Shown here piece by piece: positions 26,591 through 63,902 of a stretch of DNA of 64,000 bases. The position numbers and the translations under genes were made by a program. The number at the start of each line of letters is the position of its first letter. Positions within the stretch are counted from its first letter, which is position 1. The notes under the pieces were generated by a model. The model made no database searches, had not been told where the DNA came from, and saw nothing but the letters and a program-made list of their open reading frames with translations. Origin of the DNA: Rubritalea profundi (GTDB lineage Bacteria; Verrucomicrobiota; Verrucomicrobiia; Verrucomicrobiales; Akkermansiaceae); contig NZ_MQWA01000001.1 of assembly GCF_002954445.1 (NCBI RefSeq), forward strand, positions 1,284,832 through 1,348,831, read 5' to 3'.

Positions 26591-26897
26591 GTAGTAGGAG
26601 ATCTGAAGTGTTCAGATGAATCCCCACCGCGCTCGTCAAGCCGAGCCTGCCACAGAGCTGAGTCGAGCCGCAGCAGTCCAGATCCGGGACAATGAAACGA
26701 GTTCTTACCACGAATAACACCAATCGCACGAATGGGGAGTCGCTTCGCTCCAATGAATAATTAGCAATGAGTAATTAATAATTCTGAACCGTCTGAACAC
26801 TGCTATCTGAACACTTTCTCCTTTCTCCTTTCTCCACACTTTCCCCATTTTCGCGGTAAAGATCACTGCAACGGAATTCTTAATTGGAGCGCAGCGA
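26591..26897. repeat. Repeat island downstream of the EPS sugar-transferase gene
   Basis: No gene. Contains a partial copy of the inverted-repeat element (CGCGCTCGTCAAGCCGAGCC near 26630), the ACCACGAATAACACCAATCG module (about 26708), two GGAGCGCAGCGAC-type modules (26732 inverted, 26885) and a heptamer tandem TTTCTCC x3 (26815-26835). Confidence 0.75.
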
Positions 26898-28391
26898 CTA
26901 CATTCCTTTGCCAAAGAGTATCATATAGCAAGTTTTCACCACGATTGCTACGTCTAGAGATAAAGAATAGCGCCGGACATAGTAGAGGTCGTAGTTGAGC
27001 TTTTCTAGGGTATCCTCGTCATTCGCGCCGTAGGAATAATTGACCTGAGCCCAGCCAGTGATTCCAGGTTTCACCGCATGGCGAAAGTGGTAGAACGGAA
27101 AGCGCTCCTCGTAGCCCTTCACTAGGTCCACCCACTCGGCGCGCGGACCAATCAGGCTGAGGTCGCCGATCAAGACATTCCAGAGCTGTGGCATCTCATC
27201 GAGCCGCGTCTTGCGGATAAATGCCCCGATAGACGTCAACCGATCATCATTCACGCTGGTGTATTTTGCGCCTTTTTCTGAGCCCACCCGCATCGAACGA
27301 AATTTAAAAATCATGAAGGGCTTTTCACGGTGGCCCGTGCGCACTTGGCTAAAGATAATCGGCCCAGCGCTGGTCAACTTTACCGCAATCGCAGTAGCGA
27401 TCAACAACGGCGAGGCAAACACGAAACCAAGCAAGGCAGCCGCGATATCAATCAAGCGCTTTGCTCGGTCGTAGCTGACACTTCGGTTGAGTCGAAATCC
27501 ATCCATCATCGGCCAGTTCATCGTCAACTGACTTGGTGGCTCGATCCGCAGCGTGTTCGCTAAGTAAGTCTCGTAGGTCGCAATCTTATGGCCGAGAAAC
27601 AAGGCTGAGACCATTCTACGGCTAAATTCCTCAGGGATACGCTCCACCTCGGTGGCCACCACATATTGCTCCACATACTTGCCTCGGATCGACGACTGGA
27701 ATGTCACATTCTCGATCGCTTCCACCAAGGGCGAGGTCGAGTCGCCAGCAATCAAACGCGTTCCCACCAGCTCTGGCCTGAAAGTCACCACAATGAACTC
27801 ATGCCCCCCGCCCCGCTTTACCAGGCGCGTGTAGAGATCTCTCCCTCTTCTCCCTGCGCCGATGATACACACCGCATTACCACGCTCATATCTCGCCTGA
27901 ACGCGGGAAAGAAAGTACCGGTAGAAGATAGAAACCGCGGGAAAAAGCACCAAGGCCTCACCCACCACCAATCGTGGCGATTTGAGGTTAACTCCGTAGG
28001 AAACGATCGAGTAAATAAGACAGAAAACGACCACAGCAACACCAATCGAAGCAATAATATGCTCTGACACAAACCGCGCTTGCCGCTTATCTGTCGCATA
28101 ATTATAGCCACCAATCATATACACGCCGATGATACTCGGCAACATGATTGCGAAAAGTACTCGGCGACTGATCGAGTGAGGAAAATCCACACCTGAGTGG
28201 AGGTAAATCGTCAGAGCAAAGATCGCACTGACCAGAAAAATATCAGTCAACAACAAAACCAAAGGGTAAAGACGGATCACCAACTTACGCTTCCAGTGGG
28301 TCCGTTCTTCGACTTCCTCACCAGTGACAGCGAAGATCGAACCGCTAAGCGAGGAGGTCTTCTCGAGGTTTCGCTTCGTACTATTTTCCAT
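26898..28391 (-). CDS. Membrane sugar transferase (WcaJ/WbaP type), first EPS step
   Basis: 497 residues from ATG 28391 (an in-frame start at 28424 would overlap the upstream gene; ATG 28391 lies 4 bp after its stop). The N-terminus has four or five membrane helices, then a nucleotide-binding-like domain (VCIIGAGRRGRDLYTRL), then the bacterial sugar transferase domain (KRLIDIAAALLGFVFASPLL, FKFRSMRVG, RKTRLDEMPQLWNVLIGD, SLIGPRAEW). These enzymes move a sugar phosphate from a UDP-sugar to undecaprenyl phosphate and start repeat-unit synthesis. Last gene of a TPR-exosortase-TPR operon, a usual neighbourhood for exosortase-linked EPS loci. Confidence 0.94.
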   Translation of the reverse strand: MENSTKRNLEKTSSLSGSIFAVTGEEVEERTHWKRKLVIRLYPLVLLLTDIFLVSAIFALTIYLHSGVDFPHSISRRVLFAIMLPSIIGVYMIGGYNYATDKRQARFVSEHIIASIGVAVVVFCLIYSIVSYGVNLKSPRLVVGEALVLFPAVSIFYRYFLSRVQARYERGNAVCIIGAGRRGRDLYTRLVKRGGGHEFIVVTFRPELVGTRLIAGDSTSPLVEAIENVTFQSSIRGKYVEQYVVATEVERIPEEFSRRMVSALFLGHKIATYETYLANTLRIEPPSQLTMNWPMMDGFRLNRSVSYDRAKRLIDIAAALLGFVFASPLLIATAIAVKLTSAGPIIFSQVRTGHREKPFMIFKFRSMRVGSEKGAKYTSVNDDRLTSIGAFIRKTRLDEMPQLWNVLIGDLSLIGPRAEWVDLVKGYEERFPFYHFRHAVKPGITGWAQVNYSYGANDEDTLEKLNYDLYYVRRYSLSLDVAIVVKTCYMILFGKGM

Positions 28392-28395
28392 TATA

Positions 28396-30102
28396 TTAGT
28401 TCTCTCGGAGCTTTCTCGCTTCATCCAGCATGATTCGCTGGTAAGCCGCAGCTGCCTTTTTTTCGTCTAACTGGGTGTGCGCTCGCACCAACCAGTCGTA
28501 GGCTTGGAGCAGTTGTTGCCCATCTAATTCACTCAGATGAGGCTGCATCAAATCAATGATCCCTCGCCAATTCTTTCTCAGCGAATATATGTAGCACTTA
28601 TCAAATGCAACATTAATCGACTGTTTAAAATCCACCTCCACGATCAGGTCGAGTAGATCCAAAGACTTTTGGTAGCTTGATTTATTATCACCTTGGAAAA
28701 TATTAAAGTCCAGCTGATCTGCCGAACCACCTTTAGCCGAGGCAGTAGCTGCGGAGCGCAGAACTATGAGCGAGGATGGGCTCACGGAATTAGAGAGTCC
28801 CACATGCAGCTTAGCTTTCACCTTATCGCCACCGACCCAGGCATCCATCGCCATCGCCAAGTGGGCACCACTGCCGCCAGCCTTCACCAGCACTTCCTGC
28901 ATCTGCCCAGAAAGCAAGGAATAGCCCGAAGCCACATCCACTAGCCCATTGAGCATTTCACCCGCACGGTAAGGCGGCGTTGTAGCTGCGATAGCATTGT
29001 CAAAGTGCTCAAACGCCAGAAGTCGGGACTCCGGGTTGTTCATGCGTAGCAACACCTTGAACAAGCGAATGCGCACTTCCCCAGCCCAAGCATCGTATAC
29101 TCTACGATCCGAAGACAACTTACGTTTGCGCTCGATAGCAACCAAGGTCCGCTCCAGCAAAGCCCGTCCACCCTCCAGATTCTCAGTGAGACCTGAAAGC
29201 ATCACCATGCCTTCCACACGCTCCCTGATATATTGTGCATCATGTGGATCCTCTAGGTCTAGAAATGCCACCAAATCTCGCAGCACTTGCTTTGCCTTCT
29301 CGGCATCACCAGCAGCCGCGTGAACCTGCGCTAATAGCAACCGGCCCTCAGGCGCCAATCCATCCTCAGCCTCCAGCACCTCAAGAGCCGCTGCAGCTTT
29401 TGATTGCGACATCAAAATGCGCGCCAGTGTCAGGCGCCAATAACTAGCATAGTTGCCATCTGGGGCCTGCTCCACCATATTGCGCGCCATCACGACTAAG
29501 GTCTCAGCCTCCTCTGGCCGCATTGCCCCTCTTTGGATTGAATTCGATGCCACCCAGCGTTTTGCCGGCTCATACTCGCGCTCGACAATCAGTTTTTCTC
29601 GCAATGCTCTCGCCCGCGTCACATTGCCATTGGCGCTCGCAGCGATCAACGCTCTAAACAACACTTGGTCGTTATCCTTGTAGGACGGGTGGTGGATCAG
29701 CTTAGAAAACAGCGAGTCCGCCTTCTTATAATCCCCCTCACCCATCGCCTTCAACGCCCCCTGATAATATCCACCATAGGCGCGACCACGGTTACGGTTC
29801 GCATTGATAAAAAACACAGTGAAGCCAATCAATGCCACAATCAACACCGGCGAAGCAAACCACAGTTGTTTCCATGGACGACTCGCCGACCAAGAGTTAA
29901 AGAAGCCTGCCACAGCCCTCAGCGGTTTAGAAAGCGTGAAGAAGAATTCCTCAACTCTCACACCCATAGTGTGATTTTTGAGCAACCGGCTCAGCTGACA
30001 CAGCAACCATTGAGGCCACAGAAAGGGACTCACCAGTAGATAGAGCAGGCGATTGCGGTGCTTCATCCGCCGCATTGTCGAGGATTGGTAAGGATTATTC
30101 AT
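28396..30102 (-). CDS. TPR-containing membrane protein of the exosortase/EPS operon
   Basis: 568 residues. One membrane helix around residues 76-95 (SPVLIVALIGFTVFFINANR) with a positively charged N-terminus suggests a cytoplasmic tail and a periplasmic repeat domain. TPR-like helical pairs follow (YYQGALKAMGEGDYKKADSLF, LARILMSQSKAAAALEVLEA, LLAQVHAAAGDAEKAKQVL). TPR proteins are regular members of exosortase/PEP-CTERM type EPS operons and are assumed to scaffold secretion. ATG 30102 overlaps the exosortase stop by 4 bp (ATGA), and the sugar-transferase ATG follows 4 bp after its stop, so translation is coupled. Confidence 0.85.
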   Translation of the reverse strand: MNNPYQSSTMRRMKHRNRLLYLLVSPFLWPQWLLCQLSRLLKNHTMGVRVEEFFFTLSKPLRAVAGFFNSWSASRPWKQLWFASPVLIVALIGFTVFFINANRNRGRAYGGYYQGALKAMGEGDYKKADSLFSKLIHHPSYKDNDQVLFRALIAASANGNVTRARALREKLIVEREYEPAKRWVASNSIQRGAMRPEEAETLVVMARNMVEQAPDGNYASYWRLTLARILMSQSKAAAALEVLEAEDGLAPEGRLLLAQVHAAAGDAEKAKQVLRDLVAFLDLEDPHDAQYIRERVEGMVMLSGLTENLEGGRALLERTLVAIERKRKLSSDRRVYDAWAGEVRIRLFKVLLRMNNPESRLLAFEHFDNAIAATTPPYRAGEMLNGLVDVASGYSLLSGQMQEVLVKAGGSGAHLAMAMDAWVGGDKVKAKLHVGLSNSVSPSSLIVLRSAATASAKGGSADQLDFNIFQGDNKSSYQKSLDLLDLIVEVDFKQSINVAFDKCYIYSLRKNWRGIIDLMQPHLSELDGQQLLQAYDWLVRAHTQLDEKKAAAAYQRIMLDEARKLREN

Positions 30103-31757: not shown

Positions 31758-31774
31758 CGGAGTTCTAGGTTTTT

Positions 31775-33244: not shown

Positions 33245-33778
33245 AACTACCCATCAGCCTGCCCCTGTAATCTCTAACATTCAAGTAATACGTGAGGAAG
33301 ATTTTAGATTAAAAATTAAAGAGGGAAGATGGAAGATGGAAGATGGAAGAGGGCCTGCTATATAAAGCGACTCTACCACGAATAACACCAATTCCACGAA
33401 TCTTGCTCGGATAATGAAATCTCTCTACCGCGAAAAAGACGAAAGAAGCTAAAGTTGCCAGTCCGATGAAGCGGTAGAAGGAGAAAGGAGAGAGGGGGGA
33501 GTGAGAGGAGTGAGGAGTGGGGCAGTGTTCAGACGGTCCAGAATTATTAATTATTAATTGGAGCGCAGCGACTAAGGGGCAACCCTCAACAACCCATTCG
33601 TGCGATTGGTGTGATTCGTGGTAAAAACTCGTTTCATCCTGCCGGCCCTTTAACATCTTTCGTGGTAGAGCCCGTTTCATCTAGCTAGCCCCCTTGACTA
33701 TTGACCCATGACCCATGACTGCCCGCAGGGCTCCTCTACCCTTTCCCCTTATTCCCCCCGCTCCATCGTCCTAGTTCT

Positions 33779-35154: not shown

Positions 35155-35308
35155 AACTCTTCCCGGATGGCTAATGACAGATGACAGATGACAGATGGCG
35201 GATGATGGATGATGGATGATGGATGATGGATGATGTCTCTTAAATCTTAAATCCGACATCGTGAATCAGCTTATCAGCAATCAGCTATCAGCTATCAGCT
35301 ATCAGCAA
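35155..35308. repeat. 7-bp tandem repeat tracts between manC and fcl
   Basis: Three heptamer tracts: ATGACAG x3 (about 35175-35198), GGATGAT x5 (about 35200-35236), and ATCAGCT-type units (about 35265-35310) that run up to the fcl stop codon. Confidence 0.85.
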
Positions 35309-36331
35309 TCACAAGCGCAGCTCCGCTTGACTGCTTAAAAACCATTGATAAGTCTTCTCGAGGCCATGTTCGAGGCTCAAGGAATATTGCCAGCCGAGGT
35401 CCTTGAGTCGGCTAACATCCATGAGCTTCCTTGGTGTCCCGTCTGGCTTAGTCGCATCGAAGGCTAGTTCACCGTCAAATCCGACCACTCGCTGCATCGT
35501 CTCTGCGAGCTCGCGAATCGTGCAATCCACACCTGTACCTACGTTAATATGCGACATCATCGGATCCGTCTGCTTGTCGTAGACGTCTTTAGAAAGATTC
35601 ATCACATGCACACTTGCTGCAGCCATGTCGTCTACATAGAGAAATTCTCGCATCGGCGTACCTGATCCCCACACCACAACATTGGCGGCATCGTTCAATT
35701 TTGCCTCATGGAAGCGTCTCATCATCGCGGGGATTACGTGACTGTTCTCTGGGTGGAAGTTGTCATTCTCTCCGTAGAGATTTGTCGGCATCACACTGCG
35801 GTAATCCACTCCATATTGTCTATTATATGATTCACAGAGCTTTATGCCCGCAATCTTAGCAACAGCGTACGGCTCATTGGTTGGCTCTAAATGGCCGTCA
35901 AGAAGAGCCGTTTCAACCATCGGTTGTTCAGCAAGCTTTGGGTAAATGCAACTAGAACCAAGGAAAAGCAATTGCTTCACTCCTGACTTGTAGGCTTGAT
36001 GGATAATATTACACTCCATCATCAAATTCTCATAAATGAAGTCCGCCGGGTATGTATTGTTCGCGTGAATTCCACCAACCTTTGCGGCAGCTAGATACAC
36101 TTGATCAATCTTCTCTTCTGCAAAAAACTCTGCAACTGCTGCTTGTGAACTAAGGTCCAACTCAGCACGCGTGCGCGTCACTAGCTCACAATTACCAGCT
36201 TCCAACAACTGCCTCGCAATCGCCGATCCCACCATCCCCTTATGCCCTGCTATGAATACACGCTTAGCGTGTGATGACTGATTGCTGATTGCTGATTGCT
36301 GACTACTCGGATCTAACTGATTCTTTTCCAT
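35309..36331 (-). CDS. fcl: GDP-L-fucose synthase
   Basis: 340 residues, extended SDR family; makes GDP-L-fucose from GDP-4-keto-6-deoxymannose with NADPH. Rossmann motif [14 protein letters not shown], active-site [20 protein letters not shown], and [14 protein letters not shown] and [21 protein letters not shown] stretches are all in place. Mature enzymes start about at RVFIAGHKG. Here ~24 extra residues ([20 protein letters not shown]) precede it, encoded by TGATTGC heptamer repeats, and no closer start codon exists. The stop codon is flanked by related CAGCTAT repeats, so the gene sits between two repeat tracts, one of which has entered the coding sequence. Confidence 0.95.
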
Positions 36332-36506
36332 TTCTACTATTTGATTATTCTAAAATTTGATACCCGCTATTTACCGCTAATGGCTGAATAGCTTCACTCT
36401 GATGATTGATGATTGATGGCTGATTTAAGATTTAAGACATTCATCTTCCGTCTTCCGTCTTCCGTCTTCCGTCTTCCGTCTTCCGTCTTCCGTCTTCCAT
36501 CTTCCA
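36332..36506. repeat. 7-bp tandem repeats upstream of fcl
   Basis: GATGATT (about 36400-36418), ATTTAAG x2, then CTTCCGT x~8 ending in CTTCCAT x2 (about 36443-36508). No gene. Confidence 0.85.
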
Positions 36507-36857
36507 TCATTTCCTTAGATATTTGGCGAAGCCGGCTAGCTGTTTGGAGATGCTTTCACAGTGCGCACAGCGTAATTCAGCAATTGAAGGCTCAACGAAA
36601 CCTAATTTTACAGCTAAATAGTACATACTCCGCACTTCGCCGCACGAGCCTTTTGCTATGTCCAGAAAACGGGCGAAATCAGCTGGAGTTTGGCGCTCAG
36701 CGCCTTCCGCGACATTATTCGAGACTGACACTGCCGCGCGCTTTATCTGGTCACAAAATCCATAGTCACGAACCTCTTTAAAGTCAGAGTACACAGAGAA
36801 CGCAATATCTTGCGCCATTTGCCAAACCTCCATTTCTTCGAATCGTTTACCACTCAT
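36507..36857 (-). CDS. Four-helix-bundle protein (23S rRNA-intervening-sequence family)
   Basis: 116 residues. The family signature is clear: FEEMEVWQMAQDIAFSVY at the N-terminus, FCDQIKRAAVSVSNNVAEG in the middle and FARFLDIAKGSCGEVRSMYY later. These small proteins were first seen in rRNA intervening sequences, but many occur inside polysaccharide loci, where their role is unknown. Flanked on both sides by heptamer repeat tracts, between fcl and gmd. Confidence 0.93.
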   Translation of the reverse strand: MSGKRFEEMEVWQMAQDIAFSVYSDFKEVRDYGFCDQIKRAAVSVSNNVAEGAERQTPADFARFLDIAKGSCGEVRSMYYLAVKLGFVEPSIAELRCAHCESISKQLAGFAKYLRK

Positions 36858-37061
36858 TTTGTTGATTATTGATGTCAGATCTAAGATTAAAGATATTTGA
36901 TTTAAGATGTCTGATCTAAGATTAAAGATGTTTGATGTTTGATTTAAAATGTCAGATTTAAGATCCAGGATTTAAGAGTCTTCCCTCTTCCCTCTTCCCT
37001 CTTCCCTCTTCCCTCTTCCCTCTTCCCTCTTCCATCTTCCATCTTCCATCAAAAATGACAC
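36858..37061. repeat. 7-bp tandem repeats between the four-helix gene and gmd
   Basis: Irregular GATTTAAGAT/GATCTAAGAT units (36888-36975) followed by CTTCCCT x~8 and CTTCCAT x3 (about 36978-37050). No gene. Confidence 0.85.
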
Positions 37062-38177
37062 TTACTCAGTCGTGACACTCACCACGTGCCCATGAGCTTT
37101 CAATAAAGTATGAGCCTTAGCCTGCTGGACGTCATTTTGAACCATTTCAGCACACATCTCTTCGACTGTGATTTCAGGTACCCATCCGAGCTTTTCTTTG
37201 GCGTAGCTAGGGTCACCGAGGAGAGTTTCCACTTCCGCTGGTCGGAAATAGCGTGGATCCACTTTGACTATCACCTCACCCACTTTAACGCCTGGTGCTT
37301 TCTCGCGATCGACATTGGTAACAGTTGCAACTTCATTTAGACCTTCACCTGTGAATTCAAGCTCGATACCGGCTTCTTTGGCTGACATCTTTACGAATGC
37401 ACGCACAGAAATTTGCTTACCTGTCGCAATCACAAAGTCTTCTGGAGTGTCTTGCTGAAGCATCATCCACTGCATCCGCACGTAGTCCTTGGCATGGCCC
37501 CAGTCGCGTAGCGCGTCCATGTTTCCTAGGTAGAGGCATTGCTCTAATCCTTGAGAAATGTTGGCAACTGCACGGGTGATCTTACGCGTCACAAATGTCT
37601 CACCGCGGCGTGGTGACTCGTGGTTGAACAAAATGCCATTACAGGCATAGATCCCGTAGGATTCACGATAGTTCACTGCAATCCAGTAGGCGTACATCTT
37701 TGCCACGGCATAGGGTGAACGCGGGTGGAATGGTGTCTTCTCCGTCTGCGGAATTTCTTGAACTTCACCATAGAGCTCAGAGGTCGATGCTTGGTAAAAC
37801 TTTGTCTTCTTTTCTAGACCTAAAAAGCGAATCGCTTCAAGTAATCGAAGGGTGCCTAGCGCGTCGACATCCGCGGTGTACTCGGGAACCTCAAAGGAAA
37901 CCGCCACGTGCGACTGAGCTCCGAGATTGTACACCTCATCCGGCTCCACGTCCTTCATGATTCGAATGAGGTTCGAAGAATCCGTCAAATCTCCGTAATG
38001 AAGATGGAACCGTGAGTTCTCAATATGCGGATCTTGGTAAATGTGATCAACGCGTGCAGTGTTGAACGACGATGCACGGCGTTTGATACCATGCACTTCG
38101 TATCCCTTTTCTAAAAGAAGTTCCGCGAGATACGATCCGTCCTGGCCTGTGATACCAGTAATAAGGGCTTTTTTCAT
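37062..38177 (-). CDS. gmd: GDP-mannose 4,6-dehydratase
   Basis: 371 residues from ATG 38177 ([20 protein letters not shown]); an in-frame start 10 codons upstream is less likely. It converts GDP-mannose to GDP-4-keto-6-deoxymannose, the step before Fcl. The NADP-binding [12 protein letters not shown], the STSELYG strand, [17 protein letters not shown] active site and [17 protein letters not shown] motif are all present. The normal length and motifs indicate a functional enzyme. Confidence 0.97.
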
Positions 38178-38648
38178 AAATAAAGAGGTGTGGCCAATTT
38201 CTACCAAAATTGATGAGGAACCGATAAACCATTCGAGCGTTTAAATCTACCAAATTCTATCTAACATAAAAAAATCGCACCATATAGGGAAGGAGCATAT
38301 AAAATCGGGACTGCTGAGCTCGACTCAGCTCTGATGGATGGATGTGGCACGTCACATGGGGTGCGCAGCTGAGTAGCCTGGGCTAGAAACGATGAAACCC
38401 CACCGCGCTCGTCAAGCCGAGCCAGCCGCAAAGCGGTGTCGAGCCACACGCACTCCAAACCACTGCAACGGAATCCGTTAAATCAGCGTAATCCGCGCCA
38501 AGAACTCGTTTCATCAACCAAGGGCTCCATCAGTCCGGCTCTGAAAACTGAACTCTGCTAACTGAACACTTAGTTATCTTAATTATTCATTGGAGCGCAG
38601 CGACTACCCGCAGGGCTCTTCTAGCCGAGCTGGGGCTCGGCGCTCCAA
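38178..38648. repeat. Repeat island between gmd and ugd
   Basis: Contains copy B of the 188-bp repeat (38328-38515), an AACTGAACACTT module, a GGAGCGCAGCGAC module (about 38591), CCCGCAGGGCTCTT and a GAGCTGGGGCTCGGCGCTCC motif ending at 38643. No gene; the gmd promoter should be in the first 100 bp. Confidence 0.85.
38328..38515. repeat. 188-bp repeat, copy B
   Basis: Same length and orientation as 33800-33987, five mismatches. The sequence to its left diverges (GCTGAGCTCGACTCAGCT instead of GCGCGTGCTCGACACCGCT), marking a boundary. Confidence 0.9.
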
Positions 38649-50564: not shown

Positions 50565-50565
50565 T

Positions 50566-53385: not shown

Positions 53386-55434
53386 TCACTTATCCCCCCC
53401 ATAGTAGCCATATTCCTCGCCACCATATTCGCCGTGGCCTTTGTAGCCGAGATAATTGGAGCCACCGGTGCGCTTCATGCCATTGACAACGACGCCACCC
53501 AATTTAGCACCGGAGGCTTTGAGCAGATCACAGGCACGGATCATGGCGCCGATGGGGGTCTTGCGGGTACGGACGACGAGAATGACCGCATGGGCATGCT
53601 TGGCGAGGAGGCGGGAATCAGCGACTGGCAGCACTGGTGCGGAGTCGAGGATGATGCGATCGAACTCTGGGATAAGATCCTCGAGCAGGCTGTTGAACTC
53701 GCCTTCGTTGAGGAGTTCGGATGGGTTGGGCGCTTTAGCACCTGAACAGACAACGGTGAGGTTTTCGATCTCGGTGTCACTAAAAACGTCTTGGATGGAA
53801 GCCTGGCCGGCAAGCACCTCGACAATGCCGGGGCCGCCATCTAGATCTGGGAATGTGCCGGACAGCGCGGGTCGACGCAGGTCGAGATCGACCAGCAAGG
53901 TGCGTTCTTTATTCATGGCGAAGGCAGCGGCCAATTCAGCGGCGACGGTGGTTTTCCCTTCACCAGGGATGGCGGAGGTCACTAGGAGGACTTTATTGTT
54001 GTCGTGCTTGCCGAGCAGGATGACTGATGCGCGGAGGTTGCGGATGGACTCGGCGTTGGCCGAATGTGGATCGTGGCTAAGAATCGACTGCCACTTGTCT
54101 TGGCGGCCAAACTTGCTGGAAGCGGGGATGGCGGCCATACAGGTGAGGCCGGTCGCTTCTTCCGCTGAGCGGACGTCGTAGATCTTGTAGTCAAGTATGC
54201 TAAGACCGAAGGCAGCAGCGAAGCCTGTGAAGATGCCAAAGATGGAACCTGCCGCGAGGTAAATCAGACGGACAGATTCTTTTGCAAGACCGATGAAGGC
54301 GGGCTCTACGACCTTGAGGTTGTTCATGCTCTGATTGTCAGCGACATCGATCTCAGTCATCCGTTGGCTAATTGATTGGTACTTGTCACGCGTCTGCTCG
54401 CTTGTGTTATTGAGCAATTTGGCACGGGAGGCGAGAGCGCCCTGGGAAAGCAGCACCCATTTGTCCGCGGCGTCTGACTTGTCAGGGCCATCGCCATCGA
54501 TGATTTTCTCGAGGGCATCCATCTCGTCCTTGTACTCGAGCCAGTACGATTTTTCGCTTGGCTTGCCGGAAGAGCGCTTGATCGCGCCGCCGAAGCTTTC
54601 GAGTAGGTCGGTATAGAGTGCCTCTTCCTGGATGCGGGCGGGGTGCTTGGGCAAGTAGCGCTGGCGCAGGATGATCACCTGGTTCCGCTTTTCCTGAATC
54701 TGCTCGCTCAGTTTGATGGCGGAGACGTAGAACTGCAGGGATTTCTCGGCCAACTCCATCTCAAGTCGCGCGCCGTCGGCTTCTTTCTTGAGAATTTTGA
54801 AGGCATCATCTGATCCACCTATGAGCTGGGATTCTTCCTTTTCGAGGTAGACCTTAAGCAAGGTATCGGCAATCACCCGGGCCGCTTCCGCATCTTGGTG
54901 CTTCACCCGCACATCGATCAACGAGGTGCCGCGACGGCCAGAAATCGTGATCCAGCTTCCGAATGAACTCACTAACTCGTAGACCTCAACCGAGGAAGCC
55001 GGCTTGAAGGCGAGCTCTTCTTCGGTGCGCATGTAGCGTGGCTTGAAGGAAAATTCTGGTGGAATGGCATTTCGCAGCGCCCGGACCTCTGGGCTCTGGG
55101 CGGTGGCGGAAAGGATCGCCGGCCCCATCAGCTTGCTGGCCTCTGTGGCAAGTATAATATCAGGCGTCATCCGCTCTTGCACCAGGTCCTGGCCGAGCAG
55201 CTGACCCGTCTGGATATTTACCTCCAGCACCGCAATCGCTTCACTGCTCGGTGGATTGATCGACATATAGTAGAGGGCTGCAAAGTAGCCGAGCACACCG
55301 AAGATCAGCATGATCCACCAGCGGCTCAGCGCCTGCCGGACATTGCTTATGCCAATGCGATTGCTCACCACGGGCTCTTCAGCACCGGTCGAGCGGTACT
55401 CTTTGTCGTCATCTGCGAAAGGGTCGATATCCAT
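53386..55434 (-). CDS. Wzc-type chain-length regulator with BY-kinase domain
   Basis: 682 residues. The N-terminal part has a Wzz domain with membrane helix about 41-60 and a coiled-coil periplasmic stretch, then a second helix near 380-405. The C-terminal BY-kinase has Walker A AIPGEGKTTVAAEL, Walker A' LLVDLDLRRP and Walker B RIILDSAPVLP. The last ~25 residues are Gly/Tyr-rich with six tyrosines, the usual autophosphorylation cluster. It controls polymer length and, with Wza, export. 569 bp of repeats separate it from wza. GC content is higher than that of the genes just downstream. Confidence 0.95.
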   Translation of the reverse strand: MDIDPFADDDKEYRSTGAEEPVVSNRIGISNVRQALSRWWIMLIFGVLGYFAALYYMSINPPSSEAIAVLEVNIQTGQLLGQDLVQERMTPDIILATEASKLMGPAILSATAQSPEVRALRNAIPPEFSFKPRYMRTEEELAFKPASSVEVYELVSSFGSWITISGRRGTSLIDVRVKHQDAEAARVIADTLLKVYLEKEESQLIGGSDDAFKILKKEADGARLEMELAEKSLQFYVSAIKLSEQIQEKRNQVIILRQRYLPKHPARIQEEALYTDLLESFGGAIKRSSGKPSEKSYWLEYKDEMDALEKIIDGDGPDKSDAADKWVLLSQGALASRAKLLNNTSEQTRDKYQSISQRMTEIDVADNQSMNNLKVVEPAFIGLAKESVRLIYLAAGSIFGIFTGFAAAFGLSILDYKIYDVRSAEEATGLTCMAAIPASSKFGRQDKWQSILSHDPHSANAESIRNLRASVILLGKHDNNKVLLVTSAIPGEGKTTVAAELAAAFAMNKERTLLVDLDLRRPALSGTFPDLDGGPGIVEVLAGQASIQDVFSDTEIENLTVVCSGAKAPNPSELLNEGEFNSLLEDLIPEFDRIILDSAPVLPVADSRLLAKHAHAVILVVRTRKTPIGAMIRACDLLKASGAKLGGVVVNGMKRTGGSNYLGYKGHGEYGGEEYGYYGGDK

Positions 55435-56003
55435 TTAAGATTTAAGATTTAAGATTTTTTGATTTAAGATTTTTGATTACCGGGAGGCATGAAATTTTTC
55501 TACCACGAATCCACACTAATCGCACGAATGCTGCAAGGCTGATGAAACGGGGAGTTTGTCGCTGCGCTCTAATTAACAATTAAGAAGTGGGAAGGGTCGC
55601 TGCGCTCTAATTGAGAAGTGGGAATTGAGAAGTGTGGGAAGGTGGTCGCTGTGCTCTAATTAAGAATTAAGAATTAAGAATTAAGAATTAAGAATTAAAC
55701 AGTGTGTGGTAGGTGAATGGGGTAAACTGGTATTAGGTGGCAGTCAAGAGGCTGTGGAAGGTGGAAGGAAAAAGGGGAGAGGGAAGAATTTAAGATTTCT
55801 GATCTAAGATTTCTGATCGCTAGGATGATGAAGCGGGGAAAGGAGAGAAGATAAAGGCAAGTCGTCTGTAGCTCCGCGCCGTATGTGTCGTGCAACAGCC
55901 ATCCTCAAGAGCTGAATCAAGCCTCAGCAGTCCCAGAAAATGAACTCCCTGCAAAGGAATTATTAATTTTTCATTGTTCATTATTCATTCGCGCGCAGCG
56001 CGC
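55435..56003. repeat. Repeat island between wzc and wza
   Basis: ATTTAAG heptamers (55436-55476), CCACGAATCCACACTAATCGCACGAA, three GTCGCTGCGCTCTAATT modules, AATTAAG x~6 (about 55657-55699), a partial inverted-repeat element (about 55871-55940) and a TTCATTCGCGCGCAGCGCGC tail. No gene. Confidence 0.8.
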
Positions 56004-56910: not shown

Positions 56911-57801
56911 CTAGTTAACGTCTGTGCCGCCCAATGAAGAAGTCACTGCAGCTGAAGCGGTATCGGCTGTAAGTACTGTACCCTGAGTTAGGATAGCGGT
57001 CACAGCGGCAGTCGTTGTAGTCACAGCTCCGGCTGTATTGGTGGAGGTCGCAGTGACCTGCGTAGCTGTAGCTGTAGTTGGCGCTGTAGCTGTAGTTGTA
57101 GTTGTCGCGGCGGTAGTATCTGTTGCCGCGGTAGTAGTAGATGTAGACGATGTGGTTGTTCCTGTATTAGTAGCCACATCTACCACAGTAGCCTGAGTAG
57201 TCGTAGCGGTACCGCCATCGGCTGTCTCGGTCGTAGTAGTCGTGGTGGACGTGATCGTTCCAGCAGCTGTGTCAGCCTTTGTCACCGTCGTTGTATCACC
57301 AGAAGTAACCGTCGTAGTCTGTGTGGCCACGTTCACTGTCGTAGTATTACCTGATGTTGTGGTCGTAGAAACCGAGCTAACAGTCACAGCTCCAGGAGTA
57401 GCAGTCACTGCTGTGGTAATGGCTGCAGGAGTGACAGCGGCCACCGTGATTGTTGTCGCAACAGTCACGGTTGCTACAGTTACTGCACCAGTGGATGACA
57501 CATTGACCACACTCATGGTCACTCCAGCCGGCACCTGAATGCCTGTGGCTGAAGGCGGTAGAGTCCGCGTCACAGGCCCAGTCACTTCGACGGTTTCCCC
57601 TCCAACGACGTATGATATTGTCTTTCCAGCAGGAACAGTCACTGTGACTCCAGTTCCTTCTGTTGTTGCTGCTTTTGCAGCAGCTTCTGTTGTTTCTGCT
57701 GTAGTCGCAGCTGAGGCTGTAACGGGTGCGAGAACGCCAAGGGCTGCAATCGCGGAGAAAGCGCCGATAGCGCTAAGGTTAAAAAATGTTTTTGCTTTCA
57801 T
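56911..57801 (-). CDS. Secreted Thr/Val/Ala-rich low-complexity protein
   Basis: 296 residues. Signal peptide (about 1-32, ending VTASA). Residues 45-100 look foldable (GVTVTVPAGKTISYVVGGET and TLPPSATGIQVPAGVTM). From ~100 on the protein is almost wholly Thr, Val and Ala with Ser and Gly (runs like TTTTTTTETADGGTATT). No family, no PEP-type C-terminal signal, no LPXTG, no Cys. Such sequence could be a fibrous or heavily O-glycosylated surface protein. Its place between the beta-barrel and wza links it to EPS secretion. The start ATG 57801 follows a C/A-only leader. Confidence 0.8.
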   Translation of the reverse strand: MKAKTFFNLSAIGAFSAIAALGVLAPVTASAATTAETTEAAAKAATTEGTGVTVTVPAGKTISYVVGGETVEVTGPVTRTLPPSATGIQVPAGVTMSVVNVSSTGAVTVATVTVATTITVAAVTPAAITTAVTATPGAVTVSSVSTTTTSGNTTTVNVATQTTTVTSGDTTTVTKADTAAGTITSTTTTTTETADGGTATTTQATVVDVATNTGTTTSSTSTTTAATDTTAATTTTTATAPTTATATQVTATSTNTAGAVTTTTAAVTAILTQGTVLTADTASAAVTSSLGGTDVN

Positions 57802-57830
57802 AGTGGTGGTGGTGTGTTGGTGGTGGTTTT
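57802..57830 (-). promoter_or_regulatory. C/A-rich, SD-less leader of the Thr-rich gene
   Basis: On the coding strand the ~29 bases before the ATG read AAAACCACCACC-AACACACCACCACCACT, containing almost only A and C. It is unstructured and has no Shine-Dalgarno sequence. Such leaders can load ribosomes through protein S1-like binding. Confidence 0.5.
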
Positions 57831-57950
57831 GATATAGATCTAGGCAGTCTGACGCATTTCTTAATAAAGAAGATGCATAAGGTTAGCAACCCTAAAACCT
57901 TACTAAGTCGCTAACAGTGACTCGGCAAGGCTGATTGGGAGAGGATGAAT

Positions 57951-59174: not shown

Positions 59175-59192
59175 TAGCGCCGGAGTGATTAA

Positions 59193-59198
59193 TTTTTT
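59193..59198 (-). other. A6 run separating the ATG and the body of the beta-barrel gene
   Basis: From ATG 59215 the frame stops after eight codons (TAA). With seven A instead of six it continues as KKLITPALVTSLGLAG, completing the signal peptide. Confidence 0.75.
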
Positions 59199-59345
59199 AA
59201 CTGAGGAGACTTCATAGAATATAGCAATTTGTTCTTTTGAAATAATCTAACGGATAGAATTCGTCAACAGTTTAAATTAGGAATTCCGTTGCAGTGCTCT
59301 TTAACCGCGAAAAAGGGGAAAGTGAGGAGTGAGGAAGTTTTCGGT

Positions 59346-59542
59346 GTTCGGTGTTCAGACTGCTAGAATTATTAATTATTCATTGCTAATTATTAATTGG
59401 AGCGCAGCGACTTAGAGATCTATGTCAAAAGTCTCAAGGTCAAAAGTCCAGACACATCGGGTGGTCGCGATAGCTGAGGTCAAAGTCCCCAGACTTTGCT
59501 AACTTGACCTTCGACTTTCAGACCTTCGACACTTCCATCTTC
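59346..59542. repeat. 197-bp direct repeat, copy 1
   Basis: Begins GTTCGGTGTTCAGACTGC and ends CACTTCCATCTTC. It aligns without gaps with 59595-59791 at two mismatches. The inner ~113 bp is the inverse of the 17069-17182 repeat. Confidence 0.92.
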
Positions 59543-59594
59543 CATCTTCCATCTTCCATCTTCCATCTTCCATCTTCCATCTTCAGTGTTCAGT

Positions 59595-59791
59595 GTTCGG
59601 TGTTCAGACTGCTAGAATTATTAATTATTCATTGCTAATTATTAGTTGGAGCGCAGCGACTTAGAGATCTATGTCAAAAGTCTCAAGGTCAAAAGTCCAG
59701 ACACATCGCGTGGTCGCGATAGCTGAGGTCAAAGTCCCCAGACTTTGCTAACTTGACCTTCGACTTTCAGACCTTCGACACTTCCATCTTC
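59595..59791. repeat. 197-bp direct repeat, copy 2
   Basis: Exactly 249 bp downstream of copy 1 with two mismatches (AATTGG/AGTTGG and CATCGGG/CATCGCG). The 52 bp between the copies is heptamer repeat. Confidence 0.92.
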
Positions 59792-60334
59792 AGTGTTCGG
59801 TGTTCAGAGGTCCGGGTCAGCAGCCATTCGTGAGATTTGTGCTATTCGTGGTAGAGAGTTGTTTCATCCTGCCGGCCCTTTAGCATCTTTCGTGGTAGAG
59901 CCCGTTTCATCAACCGAGCAGCATTCTTAATTATTAATTAGGAAGTGTGGGAGTTCTCCGATGAATGATCAATGATGCCGACCAGGTCTGAACACTGTCG
60001 CGTATAGCTCCTCCGTCACACGAGATTTCGTGTTGTCTGCAAACTGAAGTCTGAACACTTCTTGGTAATTCTGTCGATTCTGTGAATTCTGTCTAAAAAC
60101 CTCATCTAGTCGTTTGCAGAGCTCCGCAACTCCTTCAGAGTTGAACTTGGCGTTGGGATGTATCCCAGCGTAGCGGCTGTGCCGCAACACTGGGCTGAGC
60201 TCCGTAAGCCCGTTGAGCGAGTCGCTGCGCTCCAATTAGCAAGTCTTACCACTCTTCACTTATTAAATACCACTCCTCACTTTTACAAATTTTTCATTGT
60301 TCATTGTTCATTCGCGCCCATAGGTTCGCGGCCG

Positions 60335-61777
60335 ATGTCTCGCCTGTTGAATATTCTTGTTTGTTTTACCCTCATCCTCGGACCGTTGTGTGTGGGTTCG
60401 TATTTTGGTGAGTGGCGTTGGCCGCTGATTTATGCGGCGACGACAACTGGGTTGCTGGCTCTGGTTTTTGCTCGGCCGAAGAAAGCGGGTGGTCGCGTCA
60501 GTTTTTCCGTCTTGCTCACCCTGCTATTACTCATCGCAGCGCAAGGCTATTGGATGCACTACAACACCGGCACGGTCTTTATTGAGAATGAAATCATCGG
60601 CACGGTGCACTACTTTTGGCAGTTCTTACCACTCGAAAGCCAACCGTACCCAGAATACGTCGGCGGGGTCGACCAAGCAGAGGGCTGGGACCGGCTCAGC
60701 TACATCTTGCCTTGTTTGTTGATCGTGCTAGCGGTTCGGCAAATGGTGGCAAGCAGGGTTCTTAGTCTACGAGTCCTCTGTGGGACTATTTTCTGGACTG
60801 GAGTGGCGGTGGCCACCCTAGGGCTAGTCCAGCGCTACACGGGTGCCGAGGGCATCTACTGGAGCGATGACCTCATTTTAAAGAACCGCCCACTCTTCTT
60901 TGGCCCCTACCGCAGCCCCGGCATAGCAACCAGCTATATGAATCTAGGACTGGCGCTGGGGCTCTCCCATCTATTAGCCACCACCCGACGCCTGAGCAGA
61001 CGGAAGGATGCCAAGCCCACCCAGCCGCTGTTCATCTGCATCGGCCTGATCATCCTCTTTACCGGCGCAATGACCGCCGGCTCCAAGGCGGGGACTGTGT
61101 TTGCCGTCAGCACCCTCATCCTCTGGTTCGTGATGAACTGGAGAGCCGTTTTCAGCATGCTACGCAATGCCACCTCGCTGTTACCTAGCGGCAGCCCGCA
61201 TGAACGCAATATCATCTTCAGCGCGATTGCGGCGGCTGGTATCTTTGGTGTCCTCAGCCTCGGCGCCACGGTGACCGAACGCTGGGAGAAGTCGATCGAT
61301 AATGACCACCAAACCCTGCAAGTACGGAATATCGCCAACTCGGTGCAGCTAAAAATGATTGATCAGCCAGAATGGGGATGGGCGGGCTATGGCCCTGGAT
61401 CATTCTTCCCTCTCTTCCCCTTCCATGTGAGCCAAGAGGAAGGTAAAGCACTCAACAGTAAATGGGTCTACTCCCACAACGACCACCTCCAAACGCTGGT
61501 CGAGTGGGGATGGGCGGGCACCGGATGCTTTGTGCTGCTCATCGGTGGCGGGCCGACCATTCTGCTGACTGAACTGATCAACGAGGCGCTGAGTAAGAAA
61601 CGCCGCCACCGCACTGGTAACCTGTTTTACTTCCGCGGGATAGCAATCGCGATGTTTATCTGCCTGCTCCACGCCACCGTCGATTTCCCGTTCCAGATCG
61701 AATCGATCGCCATCACCTTCGCCGCCCTGCTCGGTGCCGCCTGGGCGGGTAAGTCGCTGCGCTCCAATGAAGAATGA
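60335..61777 (+). CDS. O-antigen ligase-family (Wzy_C) membrane protein
   Basis: 480 residues from ATG 60335 (SRLLNILVCFTLILGPLCVG); longer readings upstream are repeat DNA. About 12 membrane helices. The periplasmic loop has the Wzy_C pattern GYGPGSFFPLFPF and WVYSHNDHLQTLVEWGWAGT. It is the second polymerase/ligase candidate of the locus, on the opposite strand. The last nine residues (KSLRSNEE plus stop) are encoded by a GTCGCTGCGCTCCAAT repeat module that has replaced the original end. It may act as ligase, or polymerise a different polymer. Confidence 0.88.
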   Translation: MSRLLNILVCFTLILGPLCVGSYFGEWRWPLIYAATTTGLLALVFARPKKAGGRVSFSVLLTLLLLIAAQGYWMHYNTGTVFIENEIIGTVHYFWQFLPLESQPYPEYVGGVDQAEGWDRLSYILPCLLIVLAVRQMVASRVLSLRVLCGTIFWTGVAVATLGLVQRYTGAEGIYWSDDLILKNRPLFFGPYRSPGIATSYMNLGLALGLSHLLATTRRLSRRKDAKPTQPLFICIGLIILFTGAMTAGSKAGTVFAVSTLILWFVMNWRAVFSMLRNATSLLPSGSPHERNIIFSAIAAAGIFGVLSLGATVTERWEKSIDNDHQTLQVRNIANSVQLKMIDQPEWGWAGYGPGSFFPLFPFHVSQEEGKALNSKWVYSHNDHLQTLVEWGWAGTGCFVLLIGGGPTILLTELINEALSKKRRHRTGNLFYFRGIAIAMFICLLHATVDFPFQIESIAITFAALLGAAWAGKSLRSNEE

Positions 61778-62119
61778 ATAATTAATAATTCCGTTGCAGT
61801 GTTCAGTTCTCAGAGCCGGGACGATGAAGCGGTTTTCACCACGAATAGCACCAATCGCACGAATCGCACGAATCGCACGAATAAGCTGCTCGGGTGATGA
61901 CACGAGCTCTACCGCGAAAAAGGGACGAAAATTTCGAAAGCTGCTTGTAGGATGAAGCGGATTTTTACCACAGAATTTACAGAAAGTGCGGAATTGGGCT
62001 AAAGTTGCCAATCCGATGAAGCGGTAGAGAGAGGCTAAAGGAGAAAGTGATAAGTGGGGAGTGTTCAGTGTTCAGAGCTAGGACGATGAAGCGGTAAGGC
62101 TCTTGATTATCTTGTGGGC
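61778..62119. repeat. Repeat island upstream of the hicBA module
   Basis: ACCACGAATAGCACCAATCG followed by CGCACGAAT units of 9 bp (about 61838-61882), CCGCGAAAAAGGGACGAAA, GTGCGGAATTGGGCTAAAG, and two GATGAAGCGG modules. No gene. Confidence 0.8.
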
Positions 62120-62263
62120 CTACAGCTCATTGATTTCCCTGTGCCTCGGCACAGGCTCTGACACTCCAGACTCTAGGTTATGAAAAATGTCATGCTTGGC
62201 TCCATGACGAAGTAATTCACAGCCAGCTTTTTCTAGCTTCCTGATCAGCTCTCTGCGCTTCAT
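62120..62263 (-). CDS. hicA: HicA-type mRNA interferase toxin, truncated by an amber codon
   Basis: 47 codons: MKRRELIRKLEKAGCELLRH, then GAKHDIFHN and VPRHREINEL, matching HicA with its catalytic His (RHGAKHDIF). HicA proteins normally run ~12 residues further. Here TAG at 62120-62122 stops it after NEL, but the same frame goes on as AHKIIKSL, exactly the missing tail. A single-base change would restore it. Its ATG overlaps the hicB stop by 4 bp. The truncated toxin may be inactive or tamed. Confidence 0.88.
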   Translation of the reverse strand: MKRRELIRKLEKAGCELLRHGAKHDIFHNLESGVSEPVPRHREINEL

Positions 62264-62460
62264 GCTACTTCGACCTCAAGCTCCTGAACTTGCCGAATAC
62301 CAGGGATATCCTCCGAGGAAAAAAGGTCATAAAGATCCCCTAGATGCTCCTTAAGATCCTTAAGATTCTCACCCTGAGTCCAATGATCAGGGAAATCATT
62401 CAGATACCCTAGCAACATCCCGTCAGTCCCTTTCCAAAAGGTAAACTTAAGCTTCTTCAT
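62260..62460 (-). CDS. hicB: HicB-family antitoxin
   Basis: 66 residues: FTFWKGTDGMLLGYLNDFPD followed by HWTQGENLKDLKEHLGDLYD and IPGIRQVQELEVEV, typical of short HicB antitoxins with a partial RNase H-like fold and no obvious DNA-binding tail. It is upstream of hicA and coupled to it (ATGA). HicB binds HicA and blocks its RNA cleavage. Confidence 0.9.
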   Translation of the reverse strand: MKKLKFTFWKGTDGMLLGYLNDFPDHWTQGENLKDLKEHLGDLYDLFSSEDIPGIRQVQELEVEVA

Positions 62461-62935
62461 ATTTCAGTTTAAATTTTAACTACTTTTTGTCAACTGTTGC
62501 CTACCAATGACTAGCCAGCACGATGAAGCGGTAGAAGGAGAGAGTGAGAAGTGTGGAGTGTGGAGTGTTCAGACTGGGAGAGAGGCTAAAGGAGAAAGTG
62601 TGGGAGTGTTCAGACGAAACGGGATTATTCATTGGAGCTCCGCTTCTCTGGAGTGCTGAGGCTTGACTCAGCTCTTGCGGGGGGCTGTGGCTCGACACAT
62701 GCGGTGCGGAGCAGAGTCGCTGCGCTCCAATTAATAATTAAGAATTAAGAATTCCAGATTCAGTCTAGCCTGTTGACCAATGACTCTTGACCGATGACCG
62801 CCCGCAGGGCTCTCCCAGCTCTGAAAACTGAACACTGCCAACTGAACACTTAGCCCCCCTCAGCTCCTTCATCCTACAAGCAGCTTTCGAAATATTCGTC
62901 TTTTTCGCGGTCCTATCCCTACAACAAGAGCCTCA
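62461..62935. repeat. Repeat island between the two toxin-antitoxin modules
   Basis: GATGAAGCGGTAGAAGGAG, GGAGTGTGGAGTGTTCAG, a piece of the inverted-repeat element (GGAGTGCTGAGGCTTGACTC at about 62640, GGCTGTGGCTCGACACATG), GTCGCTGCGCTCCAATTAAT, and the 68-bp inverted-repeat arm at 62762-62829. No gene. Confidence 0.85.
62762..62829. repeat. 68-bp inverted repeat, left arm, flanking parDE
   Basis: Begins AGTCTAGCCTGTTGACCAAT and ends CAGCTCTGAAAACT. It is the reverse complement of 63933-64000 with two mismatches. Confidence 0.92.
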
Positions 62936-63235
62936 TCAATGCTCCGTCGATAGAATGCGTTGATAATCTTGGTCTGAACGAATAACGCGCAGGATTTCAA
63001 CTGCCTCATCACGCAAAAGGTAGAGCACTAAATACTGTCGGAACCCCCGCACGGGCATCATCCGAAATCCCCCTAATAAACTCTGGCTCATTTCCGGCCA
63101 TTCTGAGAGATGCAGGTAGGTATCAGCCACTGCTCCAATCACCCTCCTAGCGGCCTCTGGATTATCTGCTGCAATATAATCAGCTATGCCATCTAGGTCA
63201 TCACGAGCCTTTGGTCGCTCAACAATTTTAAGCAT
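62936..63235 (-). CDS. ParE/RelE-type toxin
   Basis: 99 residues of the RelE/ParE superfamily: KIVERPKARDDLDGIADYIA at the N-terminus, FRMMPVRGFRQYLVLYLLRD and EILRVIRSDQDYQRIL at the end. This is the ParE-type pattern (RGFRQYLVLY). It either poisons gyrase or cleaves mRNA; which one cannot be decided. Its start overlaps the antitoxin stop by 8 bp, so the two are cotranslated. Confidence 0.9.
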   Translation of the reverse strand: MLKIVERPKARDDLDGIADYIAADNPEAARRVIGAVADTYLHLSEWPEMSQSLLGGFRMMPVRGFRQYLVLYLLRDEAVEILRVIRSDQDYQRILSTEH

Positions 63236-63533
63236 CAGCTCGCTGCTTGTCTCTCAAACGCTCTTCTAAACGACTCAGTTGGGTCTTTTTCCAGGATTCA
63301 ACATCCTTAACTTCCATGGCATCCCCACTCTCAAATGCCTCTTGCGCTAGTGATTTTAAATGTGACAAGGCTGATTCTCGCATCACTTTACTGTCCCGGC
63401 GCTCCATTTCCCGTCTTACCGCATCGCGAACGAACTCGCTCGGTGTAGAATACTCTCCGGATTTCACCAAGTGAGTGATCCCTGAAAGCATCGGCTCAGG
63501 TAATGATATATTCAATCTTGCGACATCAGCCAT
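63228..63533 (-). CDS. ParD-like ribbon-helix-helix antitoxin
   Basis: 101 residues from ATG 63533. N-terminal ribbon-helix-helix DNA-binding segment (VARLNISLPEPMLSGITHLV, then YSTPSEFVRDAVRREMER) and a helical C-terminal tail that would cover the toxin. It probably autoregulates the pair. An in-frame start 11 codons upstream exists but does not match the family. Confidence 0.88.
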   Translation of the reverse strand: MADVARLNISLPEPMLSGITHLVKSGEYSTPSEFVRDAVRREMERRDSKVMRESALSHLKSLAQEAFESGDAMEVKDVESWKKTQLSRLEERLRDKQRADA

Positions 63534-63808
63534 ACCTAAAACTACCCCCTGAGCAATAATGTGCAATAGTTAATCACCTCAAGTAGATCCAACCCGCCAA
63601 CAAACCCATCCGCACGTTGAAATGTCCCTACCACGAAAGACACGAAATAAGCTAAAGTTGCCAGCACGATGAAGCGGTCGAAGGAGAGAGGAGAAAGGAG
63701 AAAGGAGAAAGTGAGGAGTGAGGAGTGAGGAGTGAGGAGTGTTCAGTGTTCAGTGTTCAGAGCTAGGACGATGAAGCGATAGAAGGAGAGAGGGGAAAGG
63801 AGAAAGTG

Positions 63809-63902
63809 TTGGAGTGCTGGAGTGCTGGAGTGTGGGAGTGTGGGAGTGTGGGAGTGTGGGAGTGTGGGAGTGTGGGAGTGTGGGAGTGTGGGAGTGTGGG
63901 AG
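63809..63902. repeat. 8-bp tandem array (GGAGTGTG)n
   Basis: About 11-12 units of eight bases, the first two with GGAGTGCT. The one long array here whose unit is eight rather than seven bases. Confidence 0.92.

Follow-up and report, generated by a model that had tools for sequence, protein, structure and literature searches.

Heptanucleotide repeat arrays around S23 genes in Rubritalea profundi and other bacteria: possible ends of an intervening-sequence-type mobile element

A 64,000-nucleotide stretch of the Rubritalea profundi genome (contig NZ_MQWA01000001.1, C1:1284832-1348831), here termed the window, contains numerous short tandem arrays of 7-base units, some of which surround a gene of the S23 family (PF05635, 23S rRNA intervening-sequence protein) inserted between gmd and an fcl-like gene. 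We regard it as close to an even chance that the arrays around this gene (36507-36857) came with a mobile element of the intervening-sequence (IVS) type having heptamer arrays as its ends, and the rest of the window's arrays could be ends of a related kind, remnants, or copies without the gene. A broader proposal is offered only tentatively, namely that the spacer heptamers of many bacterial phyla could represent the ends, the footprints and the copies without a gene of a single ancient and still active class of IVS-type hairpins, which would carry only an S23/Avd-like protein, make its own ends of 7-base repeats and enter operons, including those of clustered regularly interspaced short palindromic repeat (CRISPR) systems. 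Tying the S23 family and the heptamer excess together makes both testable.

The window S23 gene, whose closest solved structure is 2gsc (XCC0516, E 5.4e-14), has TCTTCC arrays on either side, and the gmd-fcl spacer in which it lies holds four arrays, with one more at the start of fcl. From aligned end to aligned end, gmd and fcl are 733 bp apart in the window and 626 bp apart in a paralogous cluster of the same genome, both of which carry S23; the distance is 29 bp in a relative of the same genus (G006) and 31 bp in one of the same family (G024), which have neither S23 nor arrays. Similarly, G270 has a 526-bp gap with S23 and arrays, and its genus mate G021 one of 120 bp with neither. The comparison covered 25 gmd loci, 24 from the family together with the paralogous cluster, many of the other family loci having gmd and fcl in the opposite order. 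S23 was present in five of them and accompanied by an array in four of the five, the nearest array of the paralogue being 1.6 kb off, and no arrays were found in any of the 20 loci without S23. Because the gmd-fcl spacers of S23-free relatives are devoid of arrays, we tie the four spacer arrays to the insertion.

A plasmid protein search with the window S23 returned 25 records, mostly cyanobacterial, and cyanobacterial plasmids offer seven sites at which S23 has inserted and relatives have neither S23 nor arrays. In plasmids of Trichormus and Scytonema the gene lies between two genes that adjoin each other in Microchaete and Nostoc linckia; the insert bears TCAGAAT-type units at one end and CTCCTGA-type units at the other, and is flanked on both sides by GTAAT, present once in the empty site (a 5-base duplication). 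The left arms of these two filled copies differ by two units (14 bases), and Nostoc C052 (L365) retains a relic of the same insertion, consisting of the left arm and a cut S23. The six further sites comprise two neighbouring ones in one Nostoc plasmid family, the nrdB-nrdA spacer, the cas10-cmr3 spacer, a position behind an integrase gene and one on an Aulosira plasmid; the cas6-cas4 insertions of Anabaena 90 and Pseudanabaena galeata also have S23-free relatives. Filled copies have lag-7 arrays (score at least 9) on both sides in 10 of 11 cases, Picosynechococcus having only a lag-8 array on one side, and in 13 of 14 empty-site tests (12 records) no lag-7 or lag-8 array of that score was found within 200 bp. 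The three sites that have a TCAGRAG arm encode S23 proteins of 79-100% identity, and copies with other arms reach at most 66%. It is thus directly observed that array length moves by whole units and that arm unit and S23 lineage go together. The elements span approximately 406-518 bp and among annotated genes contain only the S23 frame; no transposase is annotated within them, a parent element with a transposase not having been searched for. In Nostoc N6 (L375) a hairpin of about 180 bp, with the same arms and no annotated gene, splits the S23 gene.

These comparisons bear on the initial annotation of the window, which had argued from the common unit length that a copying mechanism or a protein measuring 7 bp, and not one spreading element, was at work. 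The premise of a common period holds, and lengths change in steps of whole sevens (49 bases in the window, 14 on the plasmids); a protein measuring 7 bp stays hypothetical. The denial of a spreading element is not supported at S23 loci, where the arrays behave like the ends of one, being found in filled sites and missing from nearly all empty ones tested, and where the unit follows the S23 lineage.

The association is not peculiar to plasmids. PF05635 was found in 100 of 145 sampled Verrucomicrobiota, in 93 of them above the curated cut-off, and we assembled 35 S23 loci from this phylum, five from the host and one from each of 30 genomes taken in listing order. A lag-7 array with a score of at least 12 occurs at 23 of the 35, lying within 150 bp of the domain match on the left in 15 and on the right in 18, whereas ParE control loci from the same genome sample have an array in four of 30 cases and none within 150 bp; lag-8 arrays occur at seven of the 35. 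The 250-bp flanks are complementary to each other at z>4 in 23 of 34 S23 loci and directly repeated in three (L236 was dropped from this test, the flank of the script-chosen frame being shorter than 100 bp), compared with one and none of 30 ParE loci. Aligned arms are visibly heptameric, as in (CGGGAAT)n against (ATTCCCG)n at L254. Among 30 S23 loci of mixed phyla, from genomes all chosen for holding an AGTGTTC array, 21 are bracketed by arrays, 23 have inverted flanks and four have direct ones. At the level of whole genomes, PF05635 is present in 47 of 50 genomes with AGTGTTC arrays and in none of 14 well-known control genomes, and arrays of the ACTGANN type or of its reversed control occur in 27 of 100 S23-positive and none of 45 S23-negative genomes of one phylum sample (Fisher p 1.5e-5, kinship being ignored).

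How such an element might operate we infer as follows. Its DNA, when transcribed or single-stranded, would fold so that the arms make a stem and the S23 gene the loop, and four examples have predicted folding free energies of -75 to -169 kcal/mol (RNA parameters, without a shuffle control). The folded form would then be copied into new spacers, often between the genes of an operon, and the arms would lengthen by slippage one unit per step, some 4-5 matching anchor bases allowing re-pairing one unit off. Solitary arrays could accordingly be leftovers from which the S23 part was deleted, or copies that never bore S23. The number 7 cannot be absolute, because octamer arms exist. Since PF05635 is resembled by Avd, the accessory protein in the retrohoming of diversity-generating retroelements (DGRs; PMC10053308), reverse transcription had suggested itself. 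The DGR arrangement of an Avd-like gene next to a reverse transcriptase is not found in the host genome, where the three PF00078 matches (2.70-2.72 Mb) are separated from the window S23 by more than 1.3 Mb and from the other four S23 matches by at least 0.5 Mb. A link between S23 and reverse transcriptase was not supported when tried on the genomes with at least five S23 matches.

A number of observations weigh against an element of this kind. In the window itself a composite array is repeated in the same orientation on the two sides of S23 (inverted score 13 against a null of 10.2+-1.8, direct score 61), and the stem that defines IVS elements is therefore lacking at this copy. The host has five PF05635 matches, one with an internal stop, and three of the five (L220, L223, L224) are without a lag-7 array above threshold; L220 and L224 have inverted flanks nonetheless, and L223 has neither. 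The duplication of target bases is clear at one plasmid site only, the shared bases being GTAAT there and 3 bases at another site. An S23-free cas6-cas4 spacer, that of Pseudanabaena ABRG5-3 (L367, about 676-706), bears an AATTACG array, differing in unit from those of P. galeata, the relative with S23 (AAAAGCT and AAAAGCC); the AATTACG array may be a relic or have been there beforehand. The reverse transcriptase family PF00078 was not found in 21 of the 45 S23-rich genomes, an absence that is uncertain because the genomes are drafts. Inverted array pairs around genes in general are not enriched, and as a general rule for any gene such pairs were rejected on this ground. Random stretches differ little, S23-rich genomes having 9 arrays in 307 kb and S23-free ones 4 in 385 kb. 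Most arrays, moreover, lie away from S23: within 300 bp of an S23 domain are 7 of 51 arrays of the host, 4 of 256 of the named loci and none of 59 of the others, the share of sequence so close to S23 being 0.3, 0.3 and 0.0% respectively. No decayed S23 was detected beside the distant arrays, and the window clusters at 33.3, 55.4-56.0, 59.3-59.8 and 62-64 kb show neither S23 nor detectable remains of it; their part in the S23 story is putative. Nor does such an element account for the peak at 7. Solitary arrays have a partner within 300 bp in inverted orientation in 73 and in direct orientation in 68 of 326 cases, which makes the inverted partners only suggestive as support. The organism's own S23 flanks were tried as a source of solitary arrays and rejected, good matches being seen for 14% of 44 arrays in the host against 1% of 252 and 5% of 42 in the two other sets, all small numbers.

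The abundance of the arrays is itself well established. If an array is defined by 10 or more consecutive matches at one lag, period 7 has 27 arrays in the window, where 10 first-order Markov simulations average 0.0; periods 14 and 15 follow with five each, every other period between 2 and 24 has at most two, and Tandem Repeats Finder and the run-length count both show the window to be rich in period 7. The many arrays that the initial annotation had listed between 26.8 and 63.8 kb were recovered where it placed them or a few bases away; of the 27 period-7 arrays, 24 lie within 26813-63902, one before and two just after. One correction concerns 63805-63902, where an 8-base unit, AGTGTGGG, is repeated 12 times. 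Outside open reading frames (ORFs) of at least 100 amino acids lie 26 of 35 window arrays and 32 of 51 in other stretches of the genome; 11 of 35 imperfect arrays of the host lie inside such frames. A 249-bp tandem duplication (59336-59791) has copies that are 98% identical and differ in array length by exactly 49 bases, or 7 heptamer units. In their excess over chance, their position mostly outside genes and their changes of length by whole units the arrays thus agree with the short repeats known as STRRs (short tandemly repeated repetitive sequences) or SSRs (simple sequence repeats).

On the scale of the genome, covered by 60 stretches (1.18 Mb of 4.17 Mb) together with the window, the intergenic sequence (122.7 kb, window included) contains 0, 0, 21, 7 and 2 arrays of at least three copies at periods 5, 6, 7, 8 and 9, with at most 0.2 expected for each. 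When all sequence is counted in the first 20 stretches outside the window (400 kb), period 7 with 8 arrays is not the top period, periods 9, 12 and 15 having 15, 9 and 11. The peak in unit length that had been predicted for the genome therefore exists between genes and not in all sequence beyond the window, and it is mainly regional and intergenic. Density is highest at 1.305-1.39 Mb, reaching 17 arrays per 20 kb; successive stretches there hold 17, 8, 9, 1, 5 and 9 arrays (two of the stretches being just 4 and 1.2 kb long), and stretches elsewhere 0-4. Because runs of N occur in 23 of the 60 stretches, arrays may be under-counted and the counts are lower bounds. One such run, of 968 N, directly follows the window (C1:1348832-1349799), and heptamer arrays stand on both sides of this gap.

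Beyond the host, an exact search for AGTGTTC arrays yielded at least 118 stretches, the matches listed belonging to Verrucomicrobia, Kiritimatiellae, Planctomycetes, Chloroflexi, Flavobacteria, Desulfobacterales and others. With AGTGTTC masked, 80 of these loci still have 98 arrays of period 7, against 20, 14 and 17 of periods 6, 8 and 9, and the intergenic arrays of at least three copies in 80 such heptamer-selected loci number 0, 4, 72 and 4 at periods 5 to 8. ACTGANN in three copies is present in 57 of 288 Verrucomicrobiota, its reversed control being commoner in a few genomes. From the peak after masking and the ACTGANN results we conclude that the period is common to genomes and the unit specific to each. 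A vocabulary of units common to phyla was tried and rejected (own units in the 80 foreign loci 7/56, complement control 6/56).

The units, which the initial annotation had called unrelated, prove to be less independent than that word implies. Adjoining arrays stand in one 7-base register, as do AGGAGAA, AGTGAGG and AGTGTTC at 63682-63760 and CTTCCAT, CTTCAGT and GTTCAGT at 59532-59605, and imperfect arrays are single-register mosaics, of which the clearest (36859-36971) has 16 units, 11 of them distinct, with the T and A of GAT invariant and the G varied once. The distribution of varied columns was examined in this genome, 118 loci of other named genomes (picked for holding an AGTGTTC array) and 20 stretches of other Verrucomicrobiota, with slight overlap between two of the sets; identical arrays were counted once, end units trimmed, and at least three distinct units and 2-5 varied columns required. 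Variation is confined to one contiguous block of columns in 54 of 99 arrays, against 26.2 expected (z 6.4), comprising 6 of 9 from this genome, 39 of 70 from the named genomes and 9 of 20 from the other Verrucomicrobiota. Simulated slippage with random point mutation gives a contiguous share of 0.25-0.29, equal to expectation, the real share being 0.55. Other periods have too few arrays for this test, except period 8, where 6 of 13 are contiguous. Units such as CAGTNNN, GATNNNN and TGACNNN combine an anchor with 2-4 freely varied positions, and the anchor sequence changes from array to array, even within one genome. Sites for Rho utilisation (a YC dinucleotide every 7 nt) were considered and rejected, CAGTNNN arrays conserving CAGT and not YC. 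A preference for convergent genes or 3' ends was likewise rejected for want of a consistent rule over three sets, the arrays per kb in convergent, tandem and divergent gaps being 0.21, 0.15 and 0.03 here, 1.90, 1.59 and 1.31 in the named loci and 0.25, 1.37 and 0.14 in the third set. Long arrays with a single free position also occur, G[AG]ACACT x30 (L204, 2449-2659) and AT[CT]CACT x11 (L214, 3766-3858), in both of which the two forms of the unit are intermixed without clear order.

The alternative to be weighed most carefully is ordinary slipped-strand expansion, in which any pair of 7-base copies between genes would grow and shrink by replication slippage, loops of about this size would escape mismatch repair and S23 would be unrelated to most arrays; we hold it to be possible, if on balance doubtful. 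Whole-unit changes of length, the array-period peaks at 14 and 21, the largely intergenic position and the distance of most arrays from S23 would all follow from it, as would the finding that intergenic differences between a pair of Cyanothece strains are mostly indels in steps of 7 nt (PMC4679880). A smooth escape from repair, however, predicts units of 5, 6 and 8 as well, contrary to the intergenic counts both here and elsewhere; the simulated process falls well short of the real frequency of contiguous columns; and the inverted arrays at S23 and the empty sites are left unexplained. An artefact of assembly, for which the runs of N might speak, is scarcely credible given like arrays in named isolate genomes and complete plasmids.

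That the arrays are selected binding sites for a DNA- or RNA-binding protein making contact every 7 bases appears improbable. The anchored units with their free positions would suit such a protein, and translational control has been proposed by MacGregor for the TAACTGA repeats (PMC4679880), but several anchors occur in one genome (TCTTCC, AGTG, GAT and AATTAA in the window alone) and no location relative to genes is consistently preferred over the three sets. We think it equally improbable that S23 genes merely insert into pre-existing arrays. Such an order of events would account for the common orientation of the window flanks, for the long direct arrays on both sides of S23 in P. galeata and for the heptamer array of different unit in the S23-free spacer of ABRG5-3, yet it is at odds with empty sites that in all but one of the tests lack arrays, with flanks that are mostly inverted and with an arm unit that follows the S23 lineage.

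Much of the groundwork is in print: the heptamer excess, degenerate units, inverted heptamer pairs and IVSs whose complementary ends enclose S23. PMC4692102 cites a 2007 finding that heptamers are over-represented in the repeat content of many bacterial genomes, and the excess as such is therefore not new; elsewhere repeats of longer units are described as generally normal and sometimes weakly over-represented (PMC4060949). The SSRs and STRRs of Calothrix, Nostoc (GGGGAYT) and Xanthomonas (GGGAATC), treated by Rehm et al. (2015, PMC4692102), resemble the present arrays in their period of 7, intergenic position and degeneracy with fixed positions. The Xanthomonas repeats form 70 and 75 convergent (inverted) pairs in two genomes (PMC4692102), and their unit GGGAATC recurs as the unit of the arms at the S23 locus L254. 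The same paper reports that the repeats are not generally associated with insertion sequences or transposable elements, whereas the present arrays show a tie to an S23 element for which empty sites exist; neither S23 nor four-helix turned up when the main text of that paper was searched. The TAACTGA repeats of Beggiatoaceae, cyanobacteria and Bacteroidetes (PMC4679880) are also heptamers, patchy over phyla and changing in 7-nt steps, for which horizontal transfer was suggested without a mechanism; in the main genome of that study most arrays stand just before start codons, and a search of the main text likewise turned up neither S23 nor four helix. S23 proteins have been recorded for decades without a known function (PMC4990558). 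In the 23S rRNA IVSs of Coxiella, Leptospira and Salmonella, described there as possible mobile elements of about 0.4-0.5 kb, S23 lies between complementary ends, the Coxiella IVS having a 28-bp stem in helix 45 of 23S rRNA; here the sites are spacers of protein genes and the stems consist of 7-base units. The window copy, between gmd and fcl, and the opened plasmid copies, between protein genes, do not lie in a 23S rRNA gene, and the window copy shares with the IVSs the encoded S23 and neither the complementary ends nor the rRNA location. A screen for CRISPR association names the 23S rRNA intervening-sequence protein in a figure legend (PMC10910872), and S23 hits in such screens may be passengers; S23 genes inside CRISPR or other operons would then possibly be passengers and not partners. 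No link of PF05635 with heptamer arrays emerged from the literature searched, which lacks most papers from subscription journals.

Table 1. Repeat arrays and genes of the window, in window coordinates.
Feature	Coordinates	Strand	Basis
CTTTCTC array	26814..26835	+	
AAGATGG array, inverted relative to the TCTTCC arrays at 36444 and 36979	33299..33353	+	
Array passing from ATGACAG to ATGATGG, single register, 3' of nucleotidyltransferase gene	35167..35235	+	
(ATCAGCT)n array at fcl stop, inverted relative to 36272-36307	35273..35311	+	
fcl-like NAD-dependent epimerase, downstream neighbour; name fcl inferred	35309..36331	-	PF01370
(TGATTGC)3 array at start of fcl frame, inside listed frame 35309-36331	36272..36307	+	
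TGATGAT / GATTTAA array, 3' side of S23	36400..36437	+	
(TCTTCCG)7 (TCTTCCA)2 array at S23 3' end; S23 stop TGA overlaps array end	36444..36508	+	
S23 gene, PF05635 (23S rRNA intervening-sequence protein, four-helix bundle), 116 aa	36507..36857	-	Pfam E 1.9e-29
Mosaic array, 16 units, GAT-anchored every 7 bases, just upstream of S23 start	36859..36971	+	
(TCTTCCC)7 (TCTTCCA)3 array between gmd stop and S23	36979..37050	+	
gmd (GDP-mannose 4,6-dehydratase), upstream neighbour of S23 insertion	37062..38207	-	PF16363, E 2.7e-154
ATTTAAG array	55433..55478	+	
AATTAAG array, 5.9 copies	55658..55698	+	
249-bp tandem duplication, array-length difference between copies	59336..59791	+	
CTTCCAT x7, then in register CTTCAGT, GTTCAGT, GTTCGGT	59532..59605	+	
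AGGAGAA, AGTGAGG, AGTGTTC units, common 7-base register	63682..63760	+	
AGTGTGGG array, period 8, 12 copies	63805..63902	+	

Some minor features of the surroundings may be added. The part of the window searched against Pfam (20 proteins, 26.9-63.6 kb) is largely an exopolysaccharide locus, encoding Bac_transf, exosortase EpsH, GDP-mannose enzymes and proteins of O-antigen-ligase and export type, with the S23 gene as an exception among them. Among CRISPR loci, two genera have S23 in the cas6-cas4 interval of type I-D, and Picosynechococcus 7003 has it in the cas10-cmr3 interval of type III-B. The window spacers at 26600-26900, 33400-33700, 38300-38600, 59800-60100 and 61800-62900 are mosaics of longer dispersed repeats, with recurrent phrases such as ACCACGAA, GGAGCGCAGCGAC, CTGAACACT and GTTTCATC and several inverted copies of up to 124-150 bp. 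A ParE-type toxin gene (PF05016) adjoins a ribbon-helix-helix antitoxin-like gene at 62963-63217 and 63228-63566, amid heptamer arrays.

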